A program made the position numbers and the translations under genes. The notes beneath the pieces were generated by a model. The model was not told the DNA's origin. It did not search any database and worked only from the letters and a program-made list of their open reading frames with translations. From an uncultured Flavobacteriales bacterium (GTDB lineage: Bacteria; Bacteroidota; Bacteroidia; Flavobacteriales; BACL11), in contig CAJIYM010000003.1 of assembly GCA_905181635.1 (NCBI GenBank), positions 248,001-312,000 on the forward strand: DNA of 64,000 nucleotides. Reading direction: 5' to 3'. Shown one piece after another: positions 24,706-30,117 of this stretch; positions within the stretch are counted from its first letter, which is position 1; every line of letters begins with the position of its first letter.

Positions 24706-25680
24706 ATGAGAAAAGCACTAGCTTTATTGTTCTCTCTCCCTCTTTTAGGAATTGCACAAAATACAGTTTGTTTTAATATTGAAGCTAATCCTAATCCTAA
24801 TGATTTAGCTCTTTCTCCTTTTACAAAATATGTGGATGTGTTAGGTTGTTTTAATATTTATGCGGAAAATACTATTTCAGATGCTAAAGTAAAGCATGCC
24901 GCAGCTGTTGCAGCTGAGCTTTTGGATAATGATGAAGATGGAATTGTTGACGACCCTTTAATTGCAGCTCAACTGACTAATAAAAATGCATTAATGCCGT
25001 TATTTTTTCAAGATGGAAATTCAGCAATGAATACCTTTGAATATAATTATAATGGGGATGGCGTAAGTGCAGTGCTATTCGATGATGAAATAGACCCTTC
25101 ACAAACAGGGCATTGGGGAAGTGATGCTACAGTTGAAGAAATTATGCATACAATCAATCACGTTGGACATACCAACGTTTATTCAAGTGCTTTTAGCTTG
25201 GGACCTAATTCATCTCTAATGTCAACAGCTATGGATGCCGCCAGAGGAGGTCAATTTATGACAATTCCAAACCCTTATCCTGCATCTGCTTGGTATCATT
25301 ATGATGATCAAACTTGTGATTATGAATGCATGGTGATTGAATACATGTATTGGGCTTTAGTAAGTAATATGGGAATCTTGGATAGCCCTCAAACTGCTTC
25401 TGGCATTGCAAATGAATGGGAAGCGTACAGCGCTAATCTTTTACAATCCATGGATGTATTAATGTTTAGTTTAATTACAGATGCACAATACAAATTACCT
25501 CAACTAGCTCCTGATGGAAATTACTGCCCGATTCCTTCTGCTATTAGTGAAATAAATAAAAAAAGGAAACTTATAAAAATGATAGATGTGTTTGGTAGAA
25601 ATACAATAGCTACATATAATAATCCCCTCTTCTATATTTATGACAATGGAAGTGTAGAAAAGAAAATTATTATTGAATGA
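24706..25680 (+). CDS. Secreted protein of unknown function with EF-hand-like DNDEDGIVDD segment, EEIMHTINHVGH motif and noncanonical T9SS-type tail
   Basis: Signal peptide MRKALALLFSLPLLGIAQ; motif inspection; C-terminal DVFGRNTIATYNNPLFYIYDNGSVEKKIIIE. Confidence 0.6.
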   Translation: MRKALALLFSLPLLGIAQNTVCFNIEANPNPNDLALSPFTKYVDVLGCFNIYAENTISDAKVKHAAAVAAELLDNDEDGIVDDPLIAAQLTNKNALMPLFFQDGNSAMNTFEYNYNGDGVSAVLFDDEIDPSQTGHWGSDATVEEIMHTINHVGHTNVYSSAFSLGPNSSLMSTAMDAARGGQFMTIPNPYPASAWYHYDDQTCDYECMVIEYMYWALVSNMGILDSPQTASGIANEWEAYSANLLQSMDVLMFSLITDAQYKLPQLAPDGNYCPIPSAISEINKKRKLIKMIDVFGRNTIATYNNPLFYIYDNGSVEKKIIIE

Positions 25681-27947
25681 AAAAACTGACACTAATATTT
25701 ACATGCCTTCCTTTTCTATTGCTTTCACAAAATATTAATCATTGGGAAACCGTAGTTTTTGAAGATAATTCTTGGAAATATCTGGAAGGCAATTTTGAGC
25801 CAGATACTAACTGGAGAAAATTAGCTTTTAATGATTCTAGTTGGCTACAAGGTATTGGAGGTGTAGGGTATGGTGATGGAGATGACAATACTATTATCAA
25901 TCCAGTAATATCACTTTATTTACGAAATATTTTTAATATCAATGATACTTCCGAAATTTCTGAAGCAGTTCTGCATATTGATTATGATGATGCCTTTGTT
26001 GCTTATTTGAATAATGTTGAGATTGCAAGGTCAAATATTGGAAGTATTGGTGATCACCCATTATATACTCAAGGATCATCTTCGCTTCATGAAGCCCAAA
26101 TGTATCAAGGAGGTAATCCTGATCAATTTATTATCAATACACAACTATTAAATAATATCTTACTACAAGGCAATAATGTGTTGTCCGTACAAGTACATAA
26201 TGATAATATTTCTTCTTCAGATTTAACAGCACGTATATTTCTATCATTAGGCGTTAATACTTCAACTACTAATTATTTACCTACTCCTTCCTGGTTTCAA
26301 CCTCCTCTTATTTTTACAACATCAAATCTTCCTATTGTTGTAATCAATACTAATAATCAAAACATCATGGATGACCCAAGAATTGTCTGTGATATGGGGA
26401 TTATTGACAATGGGTTTGGAACTATTAACTCAATAAATGATCCATTTAATGATTACAATGGCAAAATTAGCATAGAATACCGAGGAAGCAGTTCACAATC
26501 CTTCCCTAAAAAACCTTATGCATTAGAAACTCAAGATTCAATGGGAAACAATAATAATATTTCACTTTTGGGTATGCCCATAGAAAATGACTGGATATTA
26601 TACGCTCCTTATTCAGATAAAGCCTTAATGCGTAATTTTCTAACTTTTGATTTAGGAAGGAAAATGGGTCATTATACGCCAAGAACTGTTTATTGTGAAC
26701 TAGTCATAAATGGGGATTATAAAGGTGTGTATATATTAATGGAAAAAATAAAAAGAGATAAGGATAGAGTTGATATTGCTAAATTAGATGCTGATGATTT
26801 GTTAGGAGATAGTTTAACTGGAGGATATATAATCAAAGTAGATAAGTATACAGGAACAGGTGGTTTAGACTGGCTCTCAGACTTTCCTAATATTGGTGGA
26901 GGGATGTTATATATTCAGTATCATTATCCTGAAGCTAATGCATTACAACCTCAGCAGTTAAATTACATTGAACAATATGTAGATAGTTTTGAATATGCTT
27001 TAAATGGACCTAATTTTACTGACACTTCTATTGGATATGCTAAATATATAGATGTAAATTCTTTTATTGACTTTTATATAATAAATGAACTTTCAAAAAA
27101 TATTGATGGATACAGGTTAAGTACATATATGCATAAAGATAAAGAAAGTAAAGGAGGTAAACTAACTATGGGTCCATTTTGGGATTTTAATTTAGCATTT
27201 GGAAATGCTGACTATTGCGATGGAGGAGGTATATCAGGATGGGAAGTAGATGGTGGCTGTGGAGATAATAATCCTTTTTGGTTTGAACGACTATTGGATG
27301 ATACATTATATCAGAATAAACTTAAATGTAGATGGGAATATTTACGAGAAAAGAGTTTTAATCAAGACTCGATTTTTAACTTTATTGATAGCGTAGCCAT
27401 ATATTTAGATGATGCACAGCAAAGAAATTTTCAACAGTGGGCAACATTAGGGACTTATGTTTGGCCTAATTATTATGTTGGGAGTACTTATCAGGACGAA
27501 CTTAATTTTTTAAAAACATGGATTGGGAATAGGTTATCATGGATAGATAATAATTTGGAAGGAAATTGTTACGAAATTTTAGGATGTACCGATCCATATG
27601 CATGTAATTATAATCCACAAGTAAATACTAATGATGGAAGTTGTAATTATGATTCAGCATCATATGATACACTTTTTTCAAATATCAGTGTAAGTTGGAA
27701 TGGTTTAAATTTATTGTCATCAGGAGATTATTCCTACCCCTTAATTAATTCATCTGGATGTGATAGTATTGCAAATATTAACTTTACCATTATTATTTCA
27801 GACATATTAAATATATCTGACATTCATAATAGGTATTTGATTAAAATAACAGATATTTTAGGTAGAGAAATAAATGGTGTTAAGAACCAAACCCTTTTCT
27901 ACATCTACAATGATGGAAGTGTAGAAAAGAAAATTATTATAGAGTAA
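25677..27947 (+). CDS. CotH kinase family secreted protein with noncanonical T9SS-type tail
   Basis: IEYRGSSSQSFPKKPYALETQD, DWILYAPYSDKALMRNFLTFDLGRKMG, YKGVYILMEKIKRDKDRVDI, GGYIIKVDKY, MGPFWDFNLAFGN; GCTDPYACNYNPQVNTNDGSCNY; tail DILGREINGVKNQTLFYIYNDGSVEKKIIIE. Confidence 0.85.
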   Translation: MKKLTLIFTCLPFLLLSQNINHWETVVFEDNSWKYLEGNFEPDTNWRKLAFNDSSWLQGIGGVGYGDGDDNTIINPVISLYLRNIFNINDTSEISEAVLHIDYDDAFVAYLNNVEIARSNIGSIGDHPLYTQGSSSLHEAQMYQGGNPDQFIINTQLLNNILLQGNNVLSVQVHNDNISSSDLTARIFLSLGVNTSTTNYLPTPSWFQPPLIFTTSNLPIVVINTNNQNIMDDPRIVCDMGIIDNGFGTINSINDPFNDYNGKISIEYRGSSSQSFPKKPYALETQDSMGNNNNISLLGMPIENDWILYAPYSDKALMRNFLTFDLGRKMGHYTPRTVYCELVINGDYKGVYILMEKIKRDKDRVDIAKLDADDLLGDSLTGGYIIKVDKYTGTGGLDWLSDFPNIGGGMLYIQYHYPEANALQPQQLNYIEQYVDSFEYALNGPNFTDTSIGYAKYIDVNSFIDFYIINELSKNIDGYRLSTYMHKDKESKGGKLTMGPFWDFNLAFGNADYCDGGGISGWEVDGGCGDNNPFWFERLLDDTLYQNKLKCRWEYLREKSFNQDSIFNFIDSVAIYLDDAQQRNFQQWATLGTYVWPNYYVGSTYQDELNFLKTWIGNRLSWIDNNLEGNCYEILGCTDPYACNYNPQVNTNDGSCNYDSASYDTLFSNISVSWNGLNLLSSGDYSYPLINSSGCDSIANINFTIIISDILNISDIHNRYLIKITDILGREINGVKNQTLFYIYNDGSVEKKIIIE

Positions 27948-27974: not shown

Positions 27975-28676
27975 ATGTCAATCAACATTAATACAGTCAA
28001 TAAATTTTACGGAAAACAACAAGCTCTGAATGATGTTTCCTTTTCGCTGAATAAAGGTGAAATAGTCGGATTCCTTGGCCCTAATGGAGCTGGGAAATCT
28101 ACCTTAATGAAAATTATAACTTGCTATTTAGAACAAGACAGTGGTAAAGTTCAAGTTTGTGATTTGGACACTTTAGAACAAAACTTAAAAGTAAAAGCAA
28201 AAATTGGTTACTTACCAGAAAACAATCCGCTTTATACTCACATGTACATTAAAGAATACCTAACTTTTGTTGGTAGAATTTATAAAGTTGAAAATCTTAA
28301 TACTCGGATTACTGAAATTATTCAGCAAACAGGTTTAACCGCTGAACAAAACAAAAAAATAGATGAACTTTCAAAAGGATTTAAACAAAGAGTTGGTTTG
28401 GCTGCAGCCCTAATTCACAATCCTGAAATTTTAATTCTTGATGAACCTACAACAGGCTTGGATCCTAATCAATTGTTAGAAATAAGAAATCTGATAAAAG
28501 AAATAGGAAAGGATAAAACTGTACTACTTTCCACACATATAATGCAAGAAGTAGAAAAAATGTGTAATCGAGTAATCATTATCAATAAAGGTAAAATTAT
28601 AGATGATAAATTAATTTCCAATTTTCAGAAAAATAATATTGACCTAGAAGAACATTTTAGGAAATTAACTAGTTAG
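27975..28676 (+). CDS. gldA: ABC transporter ATP-binding protein, GldA-like
   Basis: GFLGPNGAGKSTLMKIITCYLEQDSGKV, IGYLPENNPLYTHMYIKEYL, LSKGFKQRVGLAAALIHNPEILILDEPTTGLDPNQLLEIRNLIKEIGKDKTVLLSTHIMQEVE. Confidence 0.75.
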   Translation: MSININTVNKFYGKQQALNDVSFSLNKGEIVGFLGPNGAGKSTLMKIITCYLEQDSGKVQVCDLDTLEQNLKVKAKIGYLPENNPLYTHMYIKEYLTFVGRIYKVENLNTRITEIIQQTGLTAEQNKKIDELSKGFKQRVGLAAALIHNPEILILDEPTTGLDPNQLLEIRNLIKEIGKDKTVLLSTHIMQEVEKMCNRVIIINKGKIIDDKLISNFQKNNIDLEEHFRKLTS

Positions 28677-28729
28677 AAAAATACCCAATAAATAAAAAAT
28701 AAAAATAACAGCAATTTTATAAAATTTTA

Positions 28730-28737
28730 TAAATTTG
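28730..28737 (+). promoter_or_regulatory. Putative -7 box TAAATTTG for metK
   Basis: Exact TAnnTTTG match; predicted start about 28742-28744, just before the aptamer-like P1 strand at 28747. Confidence 0.6.
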
Positions 28738-28746
28738 CAAAGTAAA

Positions 28747-28857
28747 GTGGATAGATTTGGCCTATTGCAACCACTGAAAAAAATGCTAAAACAGTATTTC
28801 CTTTAGCGCTTATTCGCCAAATCTTCCTTAATAAAAATTAAACTTAAAATTAAGAAG
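28747..28857 (+). promoter_or_regulatory. SAM-II/SAM-V-like riboswitch candidate in the metK leader
   Basis: GTGG(28747-28750)-ATAGATTTGGCCTATTGCAA-CCAC(28771-28774)-TGAAAAAAATGCTAAAACAG resembles the SAM-II pseudoknot core (GAUUU...CC.UAUUGCAA-P1'-UGA.AAA..GCUAAAA) and sits in front of metK. Confidence 0.7.
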
Positions 28858-30117
28858 ATGTCATATTATTTCACATCAGAGTCCGTCTCAGAAGGACACC
28901 CAGACAAAGTAGCAGACCAAATTTCGGATGCATTATTAGATAATTTTTTAGCCCAAGATCCCCACTCAAAAGTAGCATGTGAAACACTAGTAACTACAGG
29001 ACTAACAGTACTAAGTGGAGAGGTAAAAACAGAAGGCTATGTTGATGTGCAAAAAGTAGCGCGCGAGGTAATTCGTAAGATTGGATATATAAAATCAGAA
29101 TACCAATTTGATGCTGATAGTTGTGGTGTTATTTCAGCAATACACGAACAATCTGCTGATATTAGACAAGGAGTAGTTGAGGGAGAAGGTCTGAATAAAG
29201 AGCAAGGTGCAGGTGACCAAGGAATGATGTTTGGATATGCAACAAATGAAACTGAAAATTTGATGCCATTGGCTTTAGATATTTCTCACAAAATATTGAT
29301 TGAATTAGCAGCGATTCGTAAAGCAGGAAAAGAAATGACTTACCTGCGCCCAGACTCCAAGTCCCAAGTTACTTTAGAGTACAATGATAACCATACCCCA
29401 AAAAGAATTACAGATATTGTTGTTTCTACGCAACATGATGATTTTGCAGATGAAAAACCAATGCAACAACAAATTGAATCTGATGTAAGAAACTTATTGA
29501 TCCCAAAAATTAAAGCACAGTTATCTATTGAAAATTCGGCTTTATTTGGAGAAGAAAAATACCATGTAAACCCTACTGGAAAGTTTGTAATTGGAGGCCC
29601 TCACGGAGATACAGGATTAACTGGAAGAAAAATTATTGTAGATACCTATGGTGGGAAAGGAGCACATGGTGGTGGTGCTTTTTCAGGAAAAGACCCAAGT
29701 AAAGTTGACCGTTCGGCAGCTTATGCTACTCGTCATATTGCAAAAAACCTAGTAGCAGCTGGTGTAGCTGAGCGTATATTGGTACAAGTAAGTTATGCTA
29801 TTGGTGTAGCTGAGCCAATGGGAATTTTTGTGGACACATATGGAACTTCAAAATTAAATTTGAAAGATGGTGAGATTGCTGAAATAGTAAAAGAAATGCC
29901 TTGCTTCAACTTGAAACCAGCTTCAATTATCAGCCGTTTAAAGTTAAAAAATCCTATTTATTCAGAAACTGCAGCTTATGGACACATGGGAAGAAAATCT
30001 GAAACTAAAATCGTTAAATTTTTAGTTGGAAAAGAAGAAAAAGAATTTGAAGTAGAAACTTTTACTTGGGAGAAATTAGATTGCCAAGAAGAAGTGAAAT
30101 CTGCTTTTGGATTATAA
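28858..30117 (+). CDS. metK: S-adenosylmethionine synthetase
   Basis: [71 protein letters not shown]. Confidence 0.98.

Follow-up and report, generated by a model that had tools for sequence, protein, structure and literature searches.

A SAM-II aptamer in front of metK and its candidate anti-aptamer expression platform in Flavobacteriales

Introduction

A short element in front of the S-adenosylmethionine (SAM) synthetase gene metK of an uncultured Flavobacteriales bacterium had been read, from its letters alone, as a SAM-II/SAM-V-like riboswitch aptamer. The locus, which lies in a 64-kb stretch of DNA (hereafter the window, i.e., the whole stretch analysed), raises the question of which kind of SAM sensor the element is and how it could convey its signal to metK. 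SAM-II, studied in proteobacteria, serves as a model both for termination, known in many proteobacteria (PMC1273637, PMC2258182), and for direct occlusion, in which the ribosome-binding site is hidden (PMC10907184, PMC6061858). For the SAM-II of Bacteroidota, we found no description of an expression platform or anti-aptamer in open-access full texts, though absence there is not proof.

A catalogued SAM-II aptamer precedes metK

28730..28737 (+): TAAATTTG, Bacteroidota-type -7 box, from conservation of TAnnTTTG before P1
28741..28799 (+): SAM-II aptamer RF01726, cmscan 66.2 bits
28858..30117 (+): metK, S-adenosylmethionine synthetase, 419 aa, with PF00438, PF02772 and PF02773

The letters quoted in the original prediction for 28747-28795 agreed with the sequence, and the scan that it had suggested, with the SAM-II, SAM-V and SAM/SAH models, returned RF01726 only. 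This match (SAM-II, 'SAM-II long loop') spanned the full model (1-60) at 28741-28799 on the forward strand and scored 66.2 bits, 22 bits above the gathering cut-off of 44 bits, with an E value of 1.5e-10 over the whole 64-kb window and of 7.2e-13 when the element was searched alone. Besides one tRNA, RF01726 was the only Rfam 15 family at gathering level in the window, and at relaxed thresholds over 28600-28900 neither SAM-V, SAM/SAH (RF01727) nor any other SAM model gave a match to E 1. The SAM-II half of the earlier label therefore stood, on the strength of the RF01726 match, and the SAM-V half did not; membership in SAM-V or SAM/SAH was dropped, as those models gave no matches. It could still be argued that the element is SAM-V or SAM/SAH and not SAM-II, given that SAM-V shares its core fold with SAM-II and occurs in marine Bacteroidetes (PMC6061858), but with RF01726 as the sole matching model and the others never reaching E 1, we regard this reading as scarcely credible.

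The window's aptamer contains the words GATTT, ATTGCA and GCTAAA in their conserved order and spacing. GATTTG, ATTGC or CTTGC, and GCTAAA were retained in ~110 leaders of the order and in 40/80 metK loci from named Bacteroidota, a set of which the cmscan check covered part. RF01726 was present in 203 of the 298 sampled genomes of the order, and the window's genome, in an assembly that is 70% complete, held a single copy. The doubt previously voiced as to how well a Bacteroidota form had been described is settled by the publication of RF01726 as the 'SAM-II long loops' motif (Weinberg et al. 2010), with its taxa given as 'Bacteroidetes, marine' (PMC2864571); a SAM-II in Bacteroides thetaiotaomicron was listed already in 2005, in the first SAM-II paper (Corbino et al., PMC1273637).

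The open reading frame at 28858-30117 (ATG at 28858) carries all three S-AdoMet_synt Pfam domains (best E 4.5e-61), bearing out SAM synthetase as the downstream gene, and metK lay downstream of the aptamer in every relative with a readable downstream gene. Upstream, TAnnTTTG occurred within 60 nt of P1 in 103/108 leaders (34/34 in the window's family), usually at a distance of 7-16 nt, compared to 4/223 control blocks located farther upstream. This conservation confirms TAAATTTG at 28730-28737 as a real -7 box, and because TAnnTTTG precedes P1 so much more often than it occurs in the controls, the metK transcript very probably opens with the aptamer, as the original prediction had it, at a predicted start near 28744, a few nucleotides before P1. 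At the sequence level, homology and conservation establish the aptamer's identity, its promoter and metK as its target, and place the aptamer as an ordinary member of the catalogued SAM-II class RF01726.

P1 covaries in relatives, and predicted P2a pairing is reduced in the window's family

28747..28750 (+): P1 5' strand GTGG, partner CCAC 28771-28774, compensatory change
28771..28774 (+): P1 3' strand CCAC, partner GTGG 28747-28750, compensatory change
28764..28790 (+): strands of the pseudoknot helix P2, ATTGCA (28764-28769) and TGCTAAA (28784-28790), SAM site, conserved in relatives

P1 covariation, which the original prediction had proposed to look for in related metK leaders, was evident as two-sided changes: GTGG/CCAC in 98 leaders and GAGG/CCTC in 45, with a single mixed case. 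Along with the Rfam model, the conservation and the metK context, it bears out a SAM-II-type aptamer before metK. The P2 pairing of ATTGCA with TGCTAAA was assigned from the published SAM-II/SAM-V fold (PMC6061858).

P2a comprises 5 bp in 60% of SAM-II (PMC6061858). In nearly all other sampled families, the trinucleotide preceding ATTGC pairs with the tail that follows GCTAAA, as CTG/CAG (CUG/CAG in the RNA) or, in one genus, as CCG/CGG. The 12 genera of the window's family (f1) have a GGCCT loop, or else GGCTT or GGCTG, and a tail that is mismatched at the two inner positions; the outer positions hold G-C or G-U, plus C-G. In the window's aptamer, about two pairs of P2a are left, G60-U95 and C61-G94 (numbering 287xx). 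In terms of predicted pairing, the two inner P2a pairs are lost in the window's family and kept elsewhere.

Such a reduction could conceivably mean that the aptamer has drifted, and that without the inner P2a pairs it binds SAM poorly or serves another ligand, since nearly all other sampled families keep CUG/CAG or an equivalent where the window's family does not. However, 12 genera conserve an intact P1, L1, ATTGC and TGCTAAA ahead of metK, the outer P2a pair changes two-sidedly (A-U elsewhere, G-C or G-U in the window's family), and a 2-bp P2a is enough for SAM-V to work (PMC6061858). We thus consider drift very improbable. The P2a length in the window's family is about the SAM-V value (PMC6061858), though the sequence belongs to RF01726.

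Of note, three members of genus g8 in the same family (L044, L015 and L055) have the usual GGCTG loop and a tail without CAG, i.e., their P2a is broken from the other side. Four leaders (L022, L154, L162 and L180) carry an extra hairpin inserted between P1 and GCTAAA (e.g., CTGAA...TTCAG in L022), which recalls P3 of SAM-V.

A strand of the leader is complementary to the aptamer loop

28753..28761 (+): AGATTTGGC, loop L1, third strand of the aptamer and target of the putative anti-aptamer; complement of 28816-28824, paired in the minimum-energy fold
28802..28807 (+): TTTAGC, complement of GCTAAA 28785-28790, possible inner anti-aptamer hairpin, from word enrichment
28816..28827 (+): GCCAAATCT(TCC), putative anti-aptamer strand; pairs with 28753-28761, its TCC with GGA 28749-28751

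The loop AGATTTGGC (28753-28761) and the downstream strand GCCAAATCT (28816-28824) are perfectly complementary. Fold calculations, which are blind to pseudoknot and ligand, gave for the leader a minimum-energy fold in which the aptamer does not form (-26 kcal/mol, z -2.57); this fold paired AGATTTGGC and the preceding GGA with GCCAAATCTTCC (28816-28827). When the leader was folded stepwise, the anti-aptamer helix prevailed once 28820-28826 had been made, after completion of the aptamer, with -22.9 kcal/mol vs -8.9 kcal/mol just before its formation. Given so stable an anti-aptamer fold, SAM would need to act during transcription; ligand action at this stage is common among riboswitches.

We examined whether relatives retain this strand. 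GCCAA-T was kept in every leader of the window's family but one. CAA[AG]TC was present in 10.3/12 genera of the family (0.53 expected) and in 11.5/74 genera outside it (4.7 expected), and GCAATC, which is complementary to the P2 strand GATTGC, in 14.0/86 genera overall (1.8 expected), while the control words for both, reversed and complemented, appeared in 0-1 genera. TTTAGC was found in 27/106 leaders, with 8.0 expected, and in 12.1/86 genera, with controls at 1.8-4.0. None of the simple anti-aptamer words occurred in 39/86 genera. Among leaders bearing CAAAT, the flanking base covaried with the loop (loop base-leader base, by genera: A-T 12, G-C 14, A-C 2, G-T 1; Fisher p 2e-5 on genera and 1e-8 on loci), with non-pairing combinations at about ten loci.

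We also compared the pairing of each loop with its own leader and with permuted ones, using one leader per genus (86 genera) and no choice of words. Own pairing reached about -12.5 kcal/mol (-12.4 to -12.6) and permuted pairing -10.3 kcal/mol (sd 0.23); none of 2000 permutations was as good, and the result held without the window's family. The reversed-leader control was null (own -7.47, permuted -7.55). Within the window's family alone, permutation gave -14.6 for own vs -14.0 (1104/5000), the test having no power there because the loops are nearly identical. This own-vs-foreign comparison with its reversed control was preferred over duplex scores against shuffled leaders, which were set aside because U-rich stretches pairing with GGAAA inflate them. 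Comparative statistics support the anti-aptamer helix, which we accept on comparative grounds across the group taken together; the SAM-free RNA probably forms it.

Control of metK is probably translational

28821..28832 (+): ATCTTCCTTAAT, 5' arm of the proposed start-codon hairpin (-5.5 kcal/mol), overlaps the anti-aptamer strand
28849..28859 (+): ATTAAGAAGAT, predicted 3' arm of this hairpin, includes AU of AUG; putative function

We arrived at the proposal, to which we assign a probability of roughly 0.7, that metK is governed by a SAM-II OFF riboswitch. At low SAM, the anti-aptamer strand (28816-28824) would capture the aptamer loop (28753-28761); the A-rich initiation region would stay largely open, allowing metK to be made. 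At high SAM, the pseudoknot would be locked before the anti-aptamer strand is transcribed; this strand would then be freed and, in the window's genus, could pair around the start codon and hinder translation. Of this scheme, we infer that SAM binds and represses, as well as the kinetic order of events and the pairing at the start codon.

Alternatively, SAM binding might free a strand able to build a terminator or a stretch sensitive to Rho; attenuation is common in alpha- and beta-proteobacterial SAM-II (PMC1273637, PMC2258182). Between the aptamer and metK we detected no terminator-like site, and the hairpin of the window's leader has no T-run after it, which argues against attenuation of the intrinsic type, Rho dependence being possible; attenuation appears unlikely to us. 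With no terminator, control is probably translational, and we hold translational OFF control, with moderate confidence, to be the likeliest output.

Translation could, in principle, be blocked more simply, if the ribosome-binding site were hidden by the bound pseudoknot itself, with no role for the complementarity farther downstream. Such direct occlusion is a described mechanism of the class, proposed for the metX SAM-II and SAM-V (PMC10907184, PMC6061858), and the short P2a of the window's family resembles that of SAM-V. Yet the start codon lies ~60 nt past the aptamer, and a conserved, covarying anti-aptamer strand would be without reason, making direct occlusion, in our judgment, quite unlikely.

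Under the proposed strand exchange, the freed strand in the window is predicted to form the hairpin ATCTTC-c-TTAAT / ATTAAGAAGAT with -5.5 kcal/mol. Similar start-codon hairpins were found in several members of the window's genus, as well as in genera g4 and g14, and within the window's genus the arms undergo a two-sided change from TTAAT/ATTAA to TTAAA/TTTAA. In one species group of this genus the AUG pairs with a different stretch of the same strand, and several genera of the window's family have no clear start-codon hairpin. Over 51 genera, the predicted accessibility of the start region was higher with the anti-aptamer than when the aptamer was masked (p 6e-5), beyond shuffled platforms. 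For the window's genus, the prediction gave no net difference at the start codon, since its AUG pairs with codons 6-8 as well, in a 5-bp hairpin (GAUGU...ACAUC, -2.8 kcal/mol, 28857-28878 in the window). As modelled, this pairing complicates start-codon masking for the window's genus. Start-codon sequestration as a family-wide rule found support neither in partition functions nor in the folds of each platform and was discarded; masking is a step that we infer, with partial support from the fold models, for the window's genus only.

Extended to the Bacteroidota, the proposal would be that their SAM-II has a strand-exchange platform, in which a covarying strand ~25-30 nt downstream captures the aptamer's third strand (GATTTG) or its P2 strand (GATTGC) without SAM and, once freed by SAM, helps mask the start codon, the window's family having also shed the inner P2a pairs. 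We give this wider claim an even chance.

Relation to known riboswitches

What is new here is the candidate expression platform, i.e., the anti-aptamer strand, and the reduced P2a; the aptamer class was already known. The window resembles the published RF01726 long loops (PMC2864571) in its full-model match, its Bacteroidota origin and its position in a metK leader, whereas its family lacks the two inner P2a pairs and has the downstream anti-aptamer strand. With the alphaproteobacterial SAM-II RF00521 (PMC1273637; metX structure 2QWY) it shares the pseudoknot core, including GATTT, ATTGCA and GCTAAA, but there terminators or occlusion act close to the aptamer, and in the window the start codon is ~60 nt away with no terminator. 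SAM-V (Poiata et al. 2009; structure PMC6061858) has in common the core fold, a short P2a and probably translational control; its Shine-Dalgarno sequence lies within P2a, which is not the case in the window, and the window has no SAM-V model match. The sequestor/anti-sequestor of the add adenine riboswitch (PMC10907184) works alike, through mutually exclusive helices of which one touches the start site, yet its aptamer is unrelated and it is an ON switch, whereas an OFF switch is proposed here.

If the proposal is true, the small SAM-II aptamer would use a third, strand-exchange mechanism across Bacteroidota. Bacteroidota seldom rely on Shine-Dalgarno pairing, and the switch would likewise be an example of a riboswitch gating translation where such pairing is mostly absent.

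The neighbourhood of the metK leader

Outside the window: head-to-head SAM-I + SAM-II loci L029:1501-1725, L027:1335-1559, L015:1501-1728, L117, L121, L123, L125, L127 and L128

Many relatives carry a SAM-I riboswitch (RF00162), encoded on the opposite strand, that stands head-to-head with the metK SAM-II at a distance of 48-136 nt; within the window's family the distance is mostly 64-70 nt. At least 21 of the order's genomes have this arrangement, with direct cmscan matches in many loci of the window's family, and the gene behind SAM-I in the examined loci is metH-like (homocysteine S-methyltransferase domain, E 1.6e-99 in L029). By their matches and orientation, SAM sensors of two unrelated classes, each belonging to one of the divergent genes, flank a single short promoter region and point away from it. 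Species with both SAM-I and SAM-II were absent from a 2007 survey (PMC2258182). No SAM-I was found in the window's genome, in its 70% complete assembly. There, a same-strand ABC-transporter ATPase gene upstream (27975-28676 and 28680-28740) replaces the metH/SAM-I side, and L012, a locus of another family (f9), has an upstream gene order of the same kind.

Farther upstream in the window, 24706-25680 and 25677-27947 encode adjacent proteins that look secreted; the second contains a CotH domain (PF08757). Both share a near-identical C-terminal end, ..FYIY.(D/N)GSVEKKIIIE, which, judging by its sequence, is probably a type IX secretion sorting signal.
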